Origin: a virus
Direction: 5' to 3' (one strand)
Virus record (IMG/VR): IMGVR_UViG_3300049595_004693
Location: 1-64,000 of that record
Length of the DNA: 64,000 bases
Shown here: positions 28,453-37,318 of the stretch, in pieces
Layout of the letters: each line of letters begins with the position of its first letter
Position numbering within the stretch: position 1 is the first letter of the stretch
Translations under genes and position numbers: made by a program
Notes under the pieces: generated by a model
Database searches by the model: none
Told to the model about the DNA's origin: nothing
What the model saw: the letters and a program-made list of their open reading frames with translations, nothing else

Positions 28453-29334
28453 TTAGTTATTGAGGGCTTGGCCGGTGGTTGCTGAAGGGGTGGATGATAC
28501 ATCAAGGTTAGCACTTACTGTGACACGACACTGCGCTCCATTGCGATCGGTGGTGACATAGCTACCTGGAGCGAGTAGTGTGAGCCGATCAAGGTGCGGG
28601 CCACCGTCATATAGTGCCAAAATTTTGCCGTCCGTAAGTCGTAGAAAAATTTCATCATTTGCAAACTCTTGTCCACAAGGATAAATATATCCTTTAATAC
28701 CAATTGCATTAGCTAGTGCGTTTTGTCCTGGTTCGCCCTGCGGTCCTTGCGGACCCGTCGGGCCTACCGCACCGTCTTCGCCGTCATAGATCATTTGGCT
28801 AGTGCTTCCGCAAGTAATACGAGCACCTCCAGAGGCATTAGCGATGCTGCAGCTAGTACCATTTTGGCCATTTACTCCATTATAAACATAAGCTACAGAA
28901 TTGCCGCAAGTAATGCGAGCGCCGTTCGACAATTGCTTTACTTTACAATCCTCACCGTCTTCACCGTCATGGATGAATACAGGGAATTGATTTGGGCAGG
29001 CCAGATACACTCCAGAAAAGAAAAGTGAACGATAGGCTTGGCAACTTGCTCCTGCCGGTCCTGTTTGTCCTACAGGCCCTTGAATGCCCTGTGCTCCTTG
29101 TGGGCCTTGAACACCCTGCGGTCCCTGGGCACCGTTTAGAACAACGGAAGATGATCCATCGGTACACGAGATTCGCGCGCCCACCACAGCAAAACTTTCT
29201 TCATCGAGTTCTGCGGAAACCGAGCAGCTTGTGCCGTCTTTTCCTGGCTCCCCTTTAAAAATTTGAACCACTTCTCGGGCAGGAGAACAACTAATAAAAA
29301 CCAAAGAACAAAACAGTAAAATCCAGTTACGCAT
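28453..29334 (-). CDS. collagen-like repeat lipoprotein (293 aa)
   Basis: A lipoprotein signal (FCSLVFISC) places it on the envelope. Two collagen-type Gly-X-Y runs are present (about residues 68-95 and 190-205). Around them is a repeated module of about 30 residues containing DGxxC, then GARITC, then a YxNG or YDG turn, seen three times. Cysteine pairs within each module could form disulphides. AAAGGAG precedes the ATG. A surface role, such as altering the infected cell surface, is inferred. Confidence 0.75.
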   Translation of the reverse strand: MRNWILLFCSLVFISCSPAREVVQIFKGEPGKDGTSCSVSAELDEESFAVVGARISCTDGSSSVVLNGAQGPQGVQGPQGAQGIQGPVGQTGPAGASCQAYRSLFFSGVYLACPNQFPVFIHDGEDGEDCKVKQLSNGARITCGNSVAYVYNGVNGQNGTSCSIANASGGARITCGSTSQMIYDGEDGAVGPTGPQGPQGEPGQNALANAIGIKGYIYPCGQEFANDEIFLRLTDGKILALYDGGPHLDRLTLLAPGSYVTTDRNGAQCRVTVSANLDVSSTPSATTGQALNN

Positions 29335-32125: not shown

Positions 32126-32185
32126 TCAGTCAAACATTAAATCGTATGTTACAGCGACCACAATAAACAATACTAACAATATCAT
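32126..32185 (-). CDS. tiny membrane peptide (19 aa)
   Basis: The ATG overlaps the stop of the amidotransferase gene (TAATG). The product is almost entirely one hydrophobic helix (ILLVLFIVVAVTYDLM). It ends where the next gene's ribosome site begins, so it exactly fills the gap. It could be a coupling device or a membrane micropeptide. Confidence 0.45.
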   Translation of the reverse strand: MILLVLFIVVAVTYDLMFD

Positions 32186-33066
32186 TATTTTTTACCGTAT
32201 TGTGCCAACATATAGTCAGAATAACCCTCATTAGACTCATAGGAATAGCGGTCATAATCGTCCATCACGTCACGACTGCCAAAGGCACGCGCGGCCAATG
32301 AATCAAGGCTAGTGGTCGCGGTTAAGACTAAAGGTTTAATTTCTTGCTGATACACAATGTCATTACCTTCGAATACCGCGTGTGTGTTATCAAGGATTAG
32401 CTCCGGGTGCTCGACTTTCCACTTCATGTCCTTGGCTACGCGCTCGATGATATCGGTAGTGGTTGCAATAACATATGACCTAATAGTGCGGCACCACGCG
32501 ATATAAAGCGACGCGCGACTATCTCGAATAACGTGCGTCGTGCCTCTCTTGTCTTGAATGATCATCGCATAATAGCCTGTAACATTTTCCTCAATAGCTT
32601 CCATCCCCCCCTTTTCCCAGTACCTAAGAAGAATTTCTGTATCGCAAGTCGTGGTTAGCTTGGACTTTACTTCGTTAGTAAAGTCTTGCACGACTCCGTT
32701 ATGAATTAGCGAAACTTTGTTATTCATGAAGGGGTGGGTGTTCTCGATGGTGACATTATTAGTGCTAAGTCTCCCATGCGCCATGAATGATTTATTGCCT
32801 TTTTGCTTCACCTCTCCGAAGCAATTTCGAGTCTTCTCAATGATTGGTAGCTTGTCGGTGCGCGTATCTTGATTTGTGAATTGCAGAGGTTTCCAGTTGA
32901 AAGGCTTAGTGGTACGCTCACCGCTTATGGTGCCGTCCGATCCTAGAACGGAATAACCAAAACCATCCTTATCACTCAAGGCGCAAACTGCGTCGCGCAC
33001 GCTATTGATAAACTTAGAGTTAACATTCAAATTGCTAGCATCAGTCACCGCGAAAATCTTGCACAT
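32185..33066 (-). CDS. class II glutamine amidotransferase (Ntn hydrolase)
   Basis: Cys2 directly after Met1 is the catalytic nucleophile. Supporting motifs are AHGRLSTN, the oxyanion pair in IHNGVV, and CDTEILLRYW. It releases ammonia from glutamine and normally feeds a partner synthetase; here the upstream gene in the same operon is an amidoligase. At 293 aa it is a bare amidotransferase domain. AGGAG precedes the ATG. Confidence 0.85.
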   Translation of the reverse strand: MCKIFAVTDASNLNVNSKFINSVRDAVCALSDKDGFGYSVLGSDGTISGERTTKPFNWKPLQFTNQDTRTDKLPIIEKTRNCFGEVKQKGNKSFMAHGRLSTNNVTIENTHPFMNNKVSLIHNGVVQDFTNEVKSKLTTTCDTEILLRYWEKGGMEAIEENVTGYYAMIIQDKRGTTHVIRDSRASLYIAWCRTIRSYVIATTTDIIERVAKDMKWKVEHPELILDNTHAVFEGNDIVYQQEIKPLVLTATTSLDSLAARAFGSRDVMDDYDRYSYESNEGYSDYMLAQYGKK

Positions 33067-33093
33067 AATAAACTCCTGTTATTGTTATGATTA

Positions 33094-34242
33094 TTAAAAA
33101 GGCATTCCATCGCTACCCGTAGCGTCATATCCGGGCAATGGTCCTCCGTTAATGACCGCGCTAACGCTACCCTGAAGGCTAGGCGACACAATGACTTGCA
33201 TCGGTAGCGTCTGCGTGCTCTCCTCATTGTCGTCTAACACTTGATCAACTTCGGAGGACACCTCGGGGGAGAATTTCGCGACACGTTCGCGGATATATCC
33301 CCTCAAAGTCTCCGATGCGCCGACAAGATGCGCCACAACTTCCATGCTATCAACGCTAGACTTAATAGCCTTGCATTGCATAATGCCCTGAAGCAATTCA
33401 ATCCAAGATGCGATTTTAGACGCATCTGTGCTCCCACTATGGCCGCGAATCTCAAGCGTGCCGTACTTGGAAAGGCTATGCATATTCACAAACGCGTAAC
33501 GCGATCCCCCGCGCCTAGCGTTAATAGTAGTGGCGCAAAATCGGTTATCCCGGCGAGACTTAGGCAACATGCGCTTAAGAGCCGGGACACAATGAGCGAC
33601 ACGGTTAGCCTTGAGAGTCACCATGCGGCTAGACTCCGTGCGCATGTCAAAATGCACATGGAGCCCACAAGTACGGTTAACCCAACACCCTAGCTTATTC
33701 AATTCTGCGCAAACTTTAAATAGCGGCGACATGTCCGACTTTTTAAAGCTAACGCAGATCTCTTTACCATGTGACTCAGTGCCACACTCACACCGACCGT
33801 CATTGTCTTCTGTTTCTTCCATGCTACACGAGGAGTCATGGGGATTGAGTGATCCGTCATTTTTAATGGTGACAAATTTACTTAATCCTAAACCCCTGAT
33901 ATTTTTGGCAAACGCATTTTCCCTAGCCTGAGAAGTGAAAAAACACTCGATTTCTACACTAATCCACTCTCCCTCAAACCCCTCGGGATTTTTGGAGCTA
34001 TAAACTACGCGAGATAGCTCTACGATTTGAGAAACGGACCATTGCCCCTCATTACCATATTGATCAAGCCTATCGGCCAACATGTCGACACCTGCGCTGC
34101 GTAAATGCTTGCGATATGTCTGCAATGAACGCTTTATAACGTCCTTAAGTTCATCGGGCAATTCCCCCTTGTAGTTATCAATCAAAAACTTATAGGCGGG
34201 ATTGAGGTTGGCGATAAAAGCGGCTTTACGAGAATTTGACAT
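33094..34242 (-). CDS. amidoligase-family enzyme (COOH-NH2 ligase, PF12224-like)
   Basis: Catalytic-fold motifs of the glutamine-synthetase-like amidoligases: ISVEIE, NDGSL, CGLHVHFD and YGTLEIRGHSG. Family members form amide or peptide bonds using ATP. The N-terminal 120 residues are an extra helical region, and a Cys cluster (CSMEE to RCECG) sits between motifs. The ATG at 34242 follows GGGAGG and comes right after the upstream stop. Pairing with a class II amidotransferase suggests a peptide or protein amidation step. The substrate is unknown. Confidence 0.82.
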   Translation of the reverse strand: MSNSRKAAFIANLNPAYKFLIDNYKGELPDELKDVIKRSLQTYRKHLRSAGVDMLADRLDQYGNEGQWSVSQIVELSRVVYSSKNPEGFEGEWISVEIECFFTSQARENAFAKNIRGLGLSKFVTIKNDGSLNPHDSSCSMEETEDNDGRCECGTESHGKEICVSFKKSDMSPLFKVCAELNKLGCWVNRTCGLHVHFDMRTESSRMVTLKANRVAHCVPALKRMLPKSRRDNRFCATTINARRGGSRYAFVNMHSLSKYGTLEIRGHSGSTDASKIASWIELLQGIMQCKAIKSSVDSMEVVAHLVGASETLRGYIRERVAKFSPEVSSEVDQVLDDNEESTQTLPMQVIVSPSLQGSVSAVINGGPLPGYDATGSDGMPF

Positions 34243-34243
34243 A

Positions 34244-34432
34244 TTAGCAAGCCTCCCATGTTTCAACGGTATTAAATTCATCCACCAAAGTCAAGGCATA
34301 TTCCAAACTCTCAATGCCTTGAATGCTCCAAAGGATTTTGTCGCGATAGGACGCCCTAGAATTGATTTTCTCAAATTGGCTAGGGGATACGACGGCACAC
34401 TCACCTGTTATCAATTTAAAGACAATATACAT
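34244..34432 (-). CDS. hypothetical protein (62 aa)
   Basis: A small alpha/beta protein with AAAGGA eight bases before its ATG and its stop just before the amidoligase start. Possibly part of the amidoligase operon and, in principle, a candidate acceptor for modification, which is speculation. Confidence 0.6.
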   Translation of the reverse strand: MYIVFKLITGECAVVSPSQFEKINSRASYRDKILWSIQGIESLEYALTLVDEFNTVETWEAC

Positions 34433-34988: not shown

Positions 34989-35027
34989 GTAAAACTTTCA
35001 GGCAGAGTCTAAGCCTTAGACACCTAG
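34989..35027. repeat. diverged repeat, copy 1
   Basis: The 39 bases here and 36071-36111 share most positions, including AACTTT, AGGCAG and CTTA cores at matching spacing. The two copies bracket the AT-rich region and lie upstream of two - strand genes. Copy 1 contains the stem GTCTAA-gcc-TTAGAC. Confidence 0.5.
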
Positions 35028-35028
35028 T

Positions 35029-35248
35029 CCCTATATATATATATATATATAAGAATATAATTATAATACATATATTAAGTATTATTAAATAGAATATAAT
35101 ACATATTAAGTATAATATAATAAGTATTAAGTAGATATTAATAGTATATAGTAACTATTATTAGTATATAGTTAACTTAACTAATATAAAGTAACTACTA
35201 GTATATAGTAGCTACTAAGATATATTAAGTATTTATATATAATATGAA
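35029..35248. other. AT-rich non-coding region, candidate replication origin
   Basis: About 220 bases that are almost all A/T. It starts with an alternating TA run (35032-35051), followed by several copies of ATTAAGTAT-like and AGTATATAGTA-like words. No ORF is supported. Such DNA melts easily. With the iterated 17-bp elements about 1 kb away and duplicated flanking blocks, it is the best origin candidate in the window. This is inference. Confidence 0.45.
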
Positions 35249-35270
35249 TCACTTAATAAAAATTAAGTGA
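35249..35270. repeat. perfect inverted repeat, 9-bp arms
   Basis: TCACTTAAT, four A bases, ATTAAGTGA. At the edge of the AT-rich region; it may be a protein-binding dyad or a second terminator for - strand transcription. Confidence 0.5.
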
Positions 35271-35271
35271 A

Positions 35272-35324
35272 CTTAGAGAGAGGCTCTAAGAGGATATAAA
35301 ACACTTGAGCGAAAGCGCAAGTGT
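35272..35324 (-). terminator. tandem hairpins, likely terminator of the gene at 35382
   Basis: Read on the - strand, the first hairpin has 7-bp arms ACACTTG/CAAGTGT (35301-35324) with an inner GC pair and is followed by TTTTAT, a rho-independent pattern. A second hairpin, CTTAGAG/CTCTAAG (35272-35290), follows. They lie about 60 bases after the stop of the gene ending at 35382. Confidence 0.55.
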
Positions 35325-35381
35325 GTGAAAGGACAGGGGAATGAGAGATGAGAAAAGATGGAGGTACTAGCTCTGCAATTT

Positions 35382-35747
35382 CTATGCCAAGTCCCAATAT
35401 TCCTCACCCAATAAATAACTCGACTTGGTAGGATACTCGGTAACACTCAATGTCCCCAACACTTCGGAGTCACCATTGAGATAAAACCTAGTAACCTTAT
35501 GATTTTCAATATAAATTAAACTTGACAACATAGCTTTCTTAGCAATATCAAGTACTTGATTCTCTTGATAAGAGTCAACACAAATAACTAGAATAACACA
35601 TTGACCATTCTGTGTCAAGTATTGCAAAGGTATATTGCAATCTTTAAGCCAATTATAGGCCCATTGAGTAGCCTCTAAGTTAGTAGAACTAGAACGCTCT
35701 GAACGATTAAGATTTAAAATATATCCTTTATGCTCTAATGCAATCAT
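35382..35747 (-). CDS. hypothetical protein (121 aa)
   Basis: The ATG at 35747 has AAAGG seven bases upstream and is preferred; a TTG at 35771 overlapping the previous TGA is possible. Alpha/beta, aromatic-rich, with no motif recognised. It and the 50-residue gene before it form an isolated - strand pair in the regulatory region. Confidence 0.6.
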   Translation of the reverse strand: MIALEHKGYILNLNRSERSSSTNLEATQWAYNWLKDCNIPLQYLTQNGQCVILVICVDSYQENQVLDIAKKAMLSSLIYIENHKVTRFYLNGDSEVLGTLSVTEYPTKSSYLLGEEYWDLA

Positions 35748-35767
35748 ATCATAGCCTTTCGTATAAG

Positions 35768-35920
35768 TCAAGCAGCTATAGACTCATTGTCGACCATGTT
35801 GGCCAACTTGTCAATCTCTAAAGCTAGCAGATTAGCTATCACATAATCGGTAGGACAAGCCTCAAGAGAGTCTCTTAGGGCTTTGATACTTCTGATTAGT
35901 TCTAATACTTCAGGTGTCAT
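35768..35920 (-). CDS. small helical protein (50 aa)
   Basis: ATG at 35920, stop overlapping the possible TTG of the next gene. A leucine-rich acidic helix. The spacer upstream holds a dyad (35935-35949). Too short to assign; the coding look of the sequence and the coupled position support it. Confidence 0.55.
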   Translation of the reverse strand: MTPEVLELIRSIKALRDSLEACPTDYVIANLLALEIDKLANMVDNESIAA

Positions 35921-35934
35921 ACAATTACCACGAT

Positions 35935-35949
35935 ATATCCTTAGGATAT
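35935..35949. promoter_or_regulatory. operator-like dyad ATATCC-N3-GGATAT
   Basis: Perfect 6-bp inverted arms with a three-base centre, 15 bases before the ATG of the 50-residue gene. A TTGACT lies further upstream on the - strand at a plausible -35 distance. Confidence 0.35.
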
Positions 35950-36012
35950 CAGGGAATGATATTGAGTCAAGGTTATTTTGTGGACTCTGATAACTCTCAT
36001 GCTATAGGGTAT

Positions 36013-36300
36013 TGCATAGGCAATGCCAGAAATAAACTAATGATAATGCTATGTGTCAATGGAGATTAGTGTAGAACTTTTAGGCAGTGTATAGTTCTTA
36101 TGCACTCATAGTTTTTATGCAAGGACTATACCACAATAGCTTGGCATATATCTTGCAATAAAACATTTTGATTGGCAAGGGAATTGCTATAGCAAGAATC
36201 GTGCCAGATTAGAGCTGGCATAGAGCTTGCAGGGGGAATGCTGTGTGCAAGTATAGTGCCAGGCATGGGGATTGCAGGGGGGGTGCAAGAAGTGTGCCAG
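36013..36300. repeat. iterated 17-bp element TGCAAG-N5-TGCCAG, eight copies
   Basis: Copies at 36013-36029 (+), 36141-36157 (-), 36172-36188 (-, degenerate), 36191-36207 (+), 36215-36231 (-), 36246-36262 (+), 36260-36276 (-, two mismatches) and 36284-36300 (+). Each is two direct half-sites TGCmAG set 11 bp apart, one helical turn. The spacing is constant in all copies while the N5 varies, so protein contact at two faces is likely. Not a CRISPR: units are too short and irregularly spaced. Candidates are origin iterons or a regulator-binding array. Confidence 0.7.
36071..36111. repeat. diverged repeat, copy 2
   Basis: Partner of 34989-35027. It lies within the iteron region and before the + strand HNH gene. 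Confidence 0.5.
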
Positions 36301-36389
36301 GGGGGGGGTAGGGTACTTTTTACGGGGATTAAATATCGATAGTGATATCCAACAGATAAGTCATTTTTCTCACAAATTACCGTGTTACC

Positions 36390-36405
36390 TAACAAGTTAG
36401 TGTAT
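36390..36405 (+). promoter_or_regulatory. late promoter candidate ahead of HNH gene
   Basis: Exact TAACAAGTTA (36390-36399), then GTG and TAT. The first ATG (36404) begins at position 15 of the motif, the same geometry as at 63345-63361. A transcript starting at position 15 would be leaderless. Confidence 0.65.
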
Positions 36406-37318
36406 GGCAACATGGATGAAAAAAGAATGTTCTAAGTGTAAGAAATCACTAAGCTATGGCATAGTGAACACCTACTCTAACAGCTCAGTATACGCTATTA
36501 ATAAGCAGCTAAAGCCCTGGAACGGCTCTATATGCCCTCGATGCAATAGAGAAAAGAAAATAGCCGAGAAGAAGCTCGTAGTACTTGAGAACATAAAATG
36601 CCACACCTGTCAATCAGAATTTACCCCTCGCAATCGTCAGGCAAAGTATTGCTCTTCTAGATGTAGAGTGGTCATGACTATGCGGCGTAAAATAAAGCCG
36701 ACTAAGCCAAAAAACGACTGTGTAGTGTGCCTAACACCCAACTCGGCCACGAGATTATATTGCGGCAGCCAGTGTCAGTCAAAAGCTGCATACCTTAGAA
36801 ACAAGGTAGAACGAGTTTGTATCGAGTGTGGCAACTCTCCCGCTAAAAGCAAATACTGCTCCGCTACGTGTAGGTCAAAAGCTAACAGACGGCCCGCGAA
36901 ACCCAGATCGCATAAAGTAAAAAAATGTGTTACCTGCGGGTCGGAGTTCCGCCCTCGCGGAAAGCAGTTATATTGCGATAATCCCTGTCGCCGACCAAAA
37001 CCATCTATAAATCGAGAGAGTCTTAGAAAGTATAAAAAAATAGCTAGGAAGAAAAGAAAGCTGTGGGAACGTAGGGCATGTCCTCGTTGGGTTAAAGGAA
37101 GCGATTTATTAAAAATAGAGGCTTCTAAGCCTGGGCCAGAATATCATCTAGACCACATCATCCCACTAAAGCACCCTTTGGTGTGTGGACTTCACGTACC
37201 CGAAAATCTCCAATGGCTCAAAAAAGAAGAGAATGAGTTTAAGAACAATAAGTGGGACGGCACAGAGACTAACGAAAGTTGGAAGGTGGAGTTTGAGAAG
37301 TCCCGTTCTAAGTCGTAG
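36404..37318 (+). CDS. HNH homing-type endonuclease with multiple zinc knuckles
   Basis: The N-terminal 200 residues hold about five Cys4 knuckles (CSKCKK...CPRC, CHTC...CSSRC, CVVC...CGSQC, CIEC...CSATC, CVTC...CDNPC), probably DNA-binding. The C-terminal HNH core is LDHIIPLKHPLVCGLHVPEN, followed by NLQWL and ENEFKNNKW. The start is 36404 or the in-frame ATG at 36416. It is the only + strand gene in the 8-50 kb early region and brings its own late-type promoter, as expected for a free-standing mobile endonuclease. Confidence 0.85.
   Translation: MATWMKKECSKCKKSLSYGIVNTYSNSSVYAINKQLKPWNGSICPRCNREKKIAEKKLVVLENIKCHTCQSEFTPRNRQAKYCSSRCRVVMTMRRKIKPTKPKNDCVVCLTPNSATRLYCGSQCQSKAAYLRNKVERVCIECGNSPAKSKYCSATCRSKANRRPAKPRSHKVKKCVTCGSEFRPRGKQLYCDNPCRRPKPSINRESLRKYKKIARKKRKLWERRACPRWVKGSDLLKIEASKPGPEYHLDHIIPLKHPLVCGLHVPENLQWLKKEENEFKNNKWDGTETNESWKVEFEKSRSKS

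Follow-up and report, generated by a model that had tools for sequence, protein, structure and literature searches.

The 64,000-nucleotide stretch of viral DNA analysed here (the window) belongs to an IMG/VR record that is 78,803 bases long and contains an intergenic array of elements that have the motif of sigma-54 (RpoN) −24/−12 promoter elements. The elements are clustered non-randomly and helically phased, and arrays of the same kind are spread across many phage lineages, where they recur at a characteristic genomic position. The array is probably a docking array for the sigma-54 of the host, an alternative sigma factor that is widespread. From the sequence patterns described below we infer that host sigma-54 would bind the elements, that the bound complexes would be silent and that titration of the factor could result. 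The most likely ranking of uses places a sponge for sigma-54 or its holoenzyme first, a suggestion that we make tentatively, followed by a local role at divergent sigma-70 promoters, with activated promoters and other uses making up the remainder. More tentatively still, sigma-54 element sponges in many unrelated phages may switch off stress or defence responses of the host, with no phage protein being needed.

Sigma-54-type elements in the window

The window phage is a tailed phage with a family-A DNA polymerase, a DnaB-type helicase, a ribonucleotide reductase, a P22/SU10-like portal and a T4-type terminase. Its nearest cultured relative by terminase is a Silvanigrella phage (31%), which has a single sigma-54-like site; the terminase match gives a weak hint that the host may belong to the Bdellovibrionota.

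An earlier note on this DNA had described eight 17-bp elements, TGCAAG-N5-TGCCAG, in both orientations. Such elements do lie at that place and in both orientations; their length is exact and their half-sites recur at 11 bp. The reverse complement of the motif is CTGGCA-N5-CTTGCA, the −24/−12 element of sigma-54 (YTGGCACG-N4-TTGCW), an identity that was missed because the motif had been read on the wrong strand. As quoted in PMC2725144, the sigma-54 consensus derived from 186 promoters is mrNrYTGGCACG-N4-TTGCWNNw. The GG and GC dinucleotides of the array elements are exactly ten bases apart, and the consensus also extends beyond the core (Y in front of TGG, G or another purine after TGGCAC, and W after TTGC): at the positions left free by the search, 447 sites from non-redundant clusters in viral contigs have Y before TGG in 79%, a purine after TGGCAY in 95% (G in 68%) and W after TTGCW in 83%.

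Between 35374 and 36300 there are 11 elements with at most one mismatch to TGGCAYN5TTGCW, seven on the minus and four on the plus strand (Table 1). The eight copies reported earlier are real, but eight is too few, and two of the elements lie beyond the range then given. Across the whole window the same search yields 16 matches, compared with a mean of 4.0 and a largest value of 11 in shuffles. The pattern TGG[CT]A[ACT]N5TTGC[AT] has eight matches in the 64-kb window, all eight inside 35300–36400, a region for which 2000 dinucleotide shuffles gave a mean of 0.011 matches and never more than one; with N3, N4, N6 or N7 as the spacing, the region contains none. In the symmetric form proposed in the earlier note (TGCMAG-N5-TGCMAG, with three mismatches) the motif is not enriched over the window, with 108 matches versus 133 expected, although the local cluster is real. 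The signal consists of this local cluster and of the asymmetric pair TGGCA...TTGCA.

Table 1. Elements of the array and neighbouring features in the window
Feature	Sequence	Position	Strand	Remarks
Array proper		36013–36300		9 elements, 5 exact; order − − + + − + − + −
Sigma-54-type element	TGGCACACTTCTTGCA	36284–36299	−	Exact
Sigma-54-type element	AGGCATGGGGATTGCA	36261–36276	+	1 mismatch; faces 36284
Sigma-54-type element	TGGCACTATACTTGCA	36246–36261	−	Exact; faces 36216
Sigma-54-type element	TGGCATAGAGCTTGCA	36216–36231	+	Exact
Sigma-54-type element	TGGCACGATTCTTGCT	36191–36206	−	Exact, full YTGGCACG-N4-TTGCW; faces 36173
Sigma-54-type element	TGGCAAGGGAATTGCT	36173–36188	+	1 mismatch
Sigma-54-type element	TGGCATATATCTTGCA	36142–36157	+	Exact; back to back with 36118
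Sigma-54-type element	TGGTATAGTCCTTGCA	36118–36133	−	1 mismatch
Sigma-54-type element	TGGCATTGCCTATGCA	36013–36028	−	1 mismatch
Weaker sigma-54-type element	TGGCTTAAAGATTGCA	35636–35651	−	Within ORF 35382–35771; beyond the range of the earlier note
Sigma-54-type element	TGGCATAGAAATTGCA	35374–35389	−	Exact; overlaps 3′ end of ORF 35382–35771; beyond the range of the earlier note
Predicted sigma-70-type promoter		35943–35970	−	TTGACT-16-TATCCT, extended TG; between array and first gene of leftward arm; consensus match only
Small ORF		35768–35920	−	First gene left of array, opens long leftward block; no Pfam match
129-aa ORF, function unassigned		35382–35771	−	ORF call
304-aa ORF right of array		36404–37318	+	Zinc-ribbon-like repeats, C-terminal HNH-like stretch; no Pfam match
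Extreme A+T-rich intergenic tract		~35020–35260		~900 bp from array

The stretch from 35921 to 36403 holds no convincing gene, as had been supposed, and a minus-strand ORF that spans the array (36126–36413) is unsupported. The A+T-rich tract that had been placed beside the array exists, but at a distance, beyond two small genes. It comprises 240 bp of extreme A+T content, in which TATATA runs occur together with short TACTATATACTA-like units that are repeated. The protein encoded to the right of the array has repeated CxxC zinc-ribbon-like motifs, and its gene, the lone rightward gene amid leftward blocks, is perhaps that of a mobile endonuclease. Genes for an amidoligase and a class-II glutamine amidotransferase lie close to where the leftward arm starts (32185–34281). 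Two phages without the array have a similar cassette: Alcaligenes phage QDWS535, close to the head of its leftward arm, and Sinorhizobium phage phiM6, within its leftward block. A phage-encoded collagen-like lipoprotein (28453–29334; Pfam Collagen) has relatives in four other array-bearing loci.

Recurrence in relatives, other viruses and bacterial genomes

The earlier note had proposed conservation in relatives as a check, and arrays do recur among the relatives of the window phage. Some ten of 27 records with a portal 51–60% identical to that of the window phage, gathered irrespective of arrays, contain clusters of at least two sites within 300 bp, while an N6 control gave scattered matches only. 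Wherever the region is readable in these relatives, the array occupies an intergenic control region that is situated a few kilobases ahead of the terminase genes and, in most cases, flanked by divergent blocks. A marine podovirus clade was likewise sampled irrespective of arrays, and at least two sites are found upstream of the portal in 18 of its 35 contigs. The sites of this clade total 116 with N5, one with N6 and none with N4, and nearly all of them lie some 2.3–2.9 kb ahead of the portal gene, at the divergent junction where the replication arm meets the structural arm. The number, order and spacing of the elements differ between relatives, and it appears that the presence of an array matters more than its exact layout. 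An array is missing from roughly half of the podovirus clade and from several records related to the window phage (for example the 84-kb record G005), and is therefore dispensable. The neighbouring amidoligase gene led to distant relatives that also have none.

The same arrays are widespread in other viruses. Among 2.9 million IMG/VR viral contigs, face-to-face pairs (gap 0–30) occur in at least 120 stretches, compared with a single stretch when N6 replaces N5; back-to-back pairs occur in at least 119 and tandem pairs in at least 120 stretches. In 257 Gb of bacterial genomes, face-to-face pairs with gaps of 1–6 were found in only 14 stretches, of which at least two are on viral-looking contigs (L142 and L151). 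Each of 40 records that bear arrays contains 2–16 copies of the exact element and none of the reversed-pattern control; the sites are gathered in one region in many of these records, jumbo genomes among them, and in jumbo phages several arrays are distributed over 4–20 kb. The smallest carriers are contigs of a few kilobases and the largest are records of 480 kb. Removal of related copies reduced 335 clusters to 148, and 94 of these non-redundant clusters have mixed orientation. As for cultured phages, a blastn search with one array as the query gave chance matches only, and those examined (Silvanigrella, Alcaligenes, HMO-2011 and phiM6) have no array.

Two further kinds of occurrence were observed. 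Tandem same-strand sigma-54 pairs, their −24 boxes 26–28 bp apart, likewise occur widely among viral contigs (L017–L484) and might include true phage promoters. In the Deltaproteobacteria metagenome-assembled genome Cd354_bin82, face-to-face pairs (gap 6–7) are present on at least four chromosomal-looking contigs (L139, L141, L143 and L149), perhaps as a dispersed repeat family.

Inverted elements yield short inverted repeats, and an origin by chance, by tandem-repeat expansion or as hairpin elements (terminators or single-strand promoters) was considered. The N5 spacers vary among copies and are mostly non-complementary; no stable stem with complementary arms was found for a hairpin promoter or terminator, the fold of the array DNA is not significant (z = −1.45), and no Rfam match indicates an RNA element. 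These readings are refuted by the local shuffles, by the N6 control in IMG/VR and by the N5:N6:N4 ratio in the podovirus clade, and we assign them a negligible probability. A packaging site (pac or cosB) was also rejected: although the arrays of the marine clade are beside terS, that of the window, at 36 kb, is 14 kb away from the terminase genes (50.9–52.4 kb), and a jumbo genome has several arrays.

Phasing, promoter context and possible roles

The helical phasing of paired half-sites, already proposed in the earlier note, is borne out by the distances between neighbours of opposite orientation, whose −24 to −24 spacings are multiples of about 10.5 bp (10.5–10.6), with Rayleigh p values of about 1e-15 for face-to-face and 2e-8 for back-to-back pairs. 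Beyond the first cluster the phasing is weaker, still present (p = 0.03 and 0.001). Neighbours most often have their −24 boxes 30–31 bp apart when face to face, 10–14 bp apart when back to back and 26–28 bp apart when in tandem, distances close to the length of the sigma-54 footprint.

Phasing at 10.5 bp is no known property of sigma-54 sites; it counts against docking and hints at cooperative binding by something. It would suit a phage-encoded or other protein, whose sites (initiator iterons or a cooperative operator) merely resemble the specificity of sigma-54. Each element is indeed a direct repeat of TKGCA with an 11-bp period, the A+T-rich tract is within 1 kb and the genes diverge at the site, but the order of the half-sites is kept, every free position follows the sigma-54 consensus, no family is widely shared beyond terminase and portal, and jumbo genomes have several arrays each, so that we regard such a protein as improbable. 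Iterons at an origin, which require one orientation, were rejected in view of the strand distribution in the window and the mostly mixed clusters of other phages; no candidate for a cognate initiator gene emerges from the 82 non-redundant loci, among which only terminase and portal families are widely shared. The regulator idea of the earlier note stands, through the phasing and the conservation in relatives, whereas its iteron or initiator reading is unsupported, given the mixed orientations, the multiple jumbo arrays, the lack of a shared initiator family and the match to the consensus of a known host factor.

The motif is constant across unrelated phages and the surrounding genes are not; the factor that reads it is therefore best explained as a conserved host factor. 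To our knowledge, sigma-54 is the only conserved host factor with such specificity. In 30 array-phage records no clear or above-threshold sigma-54 DNA-binding domain (PF04552) was found, and the sigma-54 activator domain (PF00158) gave one match over the cut-off (G030, with neighbours) and two weak ones; the window phage has no PF00158 gene. An RpoN-box-like motif is absent from the six frames of all loci. Beyond the terminase and portal families no gene is widely shared among the array phages, other families being present in at most five of the 82 non-redundant loci; many of the carriers are fragments, which limits these surveys of shared genes and domains.

The elements were initially expected to be outward-pointing promoters of both arms. 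This expectation failed, as there is no outward polarity: the outermost pair points inward in 38, outward in 23 and along the same strand in 28 cases. In a broader form, host enhancer-binding proteins would activate the holoenzyme on the elements, and blocks of phage genes would be expressed under a particular host state such as membrane stress or nitrogen limitation. By sequence the elements are full sigma-54 promoters, and the arrays favour divergent junctions (28 of 49 arrays versus 43 of 209 other intergenic gaps). Of 37 one-strand clusters, 24 have their downstream gene on the strand of the sites (24:13), and in the window seven of the 11 elements are directed into the leftward gene block. 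Face-to-face pairs, however, would fire at each other, in co-directional contexts the sites run with the genes in 17 and against them in 25 cases, the arms already own sigma-70-like promoters, and neither the unpolarized outermost sites nor the missing activator gene of the window phage accords with activated transcription. The same is true of the 141-kb jumbo-phage contig L103, in which three intergenic regions each contain two or three same-strand sigma-54 elements, approximately 50–60 bp apart and directed against, i.e. away from, the flanking genes. Working promoters are thus an unlikely general role, if a little less so than sites for another protein.

Sigma-70-like promoters flank the arrays with a marked outward bias, 48 pointing outward and eight inward, where random placement gives about 20 and 15; in one locus (L031) a TTGACA-type promoter is recognizable by eye on each flank. 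This arrangement favours a local role, in which silent holoenzymes would form a block between divergent sigma-70 promoters and insulate or tune the two arms through roadblock, looping or occlusion, and not through titration. Such a role is also consistent with a position that is conserved both among the window phage's relatives and within the marine podovirus clade, and the sigma-54 holoenzyme is able to repress sigma-70 promoters by competition (PMC4551910). Simple occlusion is unlikely, as sigma-70-like promoters overlap elements no more than by chance (four versus five), and the free variation in number, order and spacing between relatives does not favour a local block. We consider this role rather unlikely overall, yet ahead of working promoters.

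Among the possible uses, the one that we tentatively prefer is a sponge. The near-consensus −24/−12 elements would be bound by host sigma-54, either on its own or within the E-sigma-54 holoenzyme. Core is not required for sigma-54 to bind promoters, and the stable closed complexes formed by its holoenzyme need an AAA+ activator (PMC2725144); such closed complexes can repress (PMC4551910). Because they cannot open DNA without the activator, complexes bound to the array would stay silent unless one were supplied. With elements packed closely in both orientations and −24 boxes aligned along one face of the helix, the phage DNA could capture many sigma-54 molecules, more of them as the phage replicates, and would withdraw sigma-54 or its holoenzyme from the host regulon (phage-shock, RNA-repair, flagellar and nitrogen genes). 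The elements lack outward polarity, show no excess overlap with sigma-70-like promoters, are densely packed and are rare in bacterial genomes; a sponge would fit this rarity and packing as well as the near-consensus sequence and the mixed orientation. The control by sigma-54 of phage-shock, RNA-repair and possibly cas genes may be the reason for a sponge: in Salmonella, Psp, RtcBA and possibly cas genes are sigma-54-dependent (PMC3844500). Salmonella rpoN mutants resist two lytic phages via glutamine shortage and RpoS (PMC8744999), and loss of sigma-54 is therefore not always good for a phage.

Besides the phasing, the dispensability of the array and its absence from the cultured phages examined, further points bear against docking or a pure sponge. 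Face-to-face elements, with −12 boxes 1–5 bp apart, could hardly hold two full holoenzymes together. A position between divergent sigma-70 promoters is not needed by a pure sponge, and a local regulatory role would also be compatible with it. If the sponge is real, a sigma factor would be titrated by phage DNA alone, with no phage protein. Phase-locked arrays in many uncultured phages would imply that sigma-54 is a common contact point between phage and host; the array could then serve in metagenomes as a marker of host physiology, since a carrier phage probably infects an rpoN-positive host, and in the laboratory as a ready-made sigma-54 decoy.

Comparison with known systems

The earlier statement that no phage element of such sequence had been described holds in the open literature that was searched. 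Phage sigma-54 sites or decoys and phase-locked arrays were likewise not found in the searched open-access literature, subscription papers and preprints apart; the single element is textbook, and it is the phage-borne phase-locked array for which the searched literature offers no counterpart.

The silent or repressive sigma-54 sites of Escherichia coli (PMC4551910) resemble the array in their −12/−24 motifs with an intact C at −12; sigma-54 RNA polymerase sits on them and can repress without an activator. They differ in being chromosomal and in that several of them overlap sigma-70 promoters, whereas the phage arrays flank such promoters and overlap them no more than by chance. With sigma-54 promoters at large the array elements share TGGCAC/T with GG ten bases from GC, a Y before, a purine after and W after TTGC. 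Known sigma-54 promoters are mostly single and aimed at a gene; the phage arrays comprise 2–11 elements placed head to head, back to back or in tandem, helix-phased and without polarity towards the arms.

The iterons of plasmid and phage origins are also repeated, helically phased sites, and they lie near A+T-rich DNA; the A+T-rich tract of the window is about 900 bp from its array. The arrays differ from them in their mixed orientation, their sigma-54 consensus, the occurrence of several arrays per genome and the lack of a shared initiator gene. A functional parallel to the proposed sponge is provided by datA (for DnaA) and the incA iterons of P1, in which clustered high-affinity sites soak up a DNA-binding protein. 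These clusters titrate replication initiators and reside on chromosomes and plasmids; the presumed ligand of the array is a host sigma factor, and its carrier is a phage.
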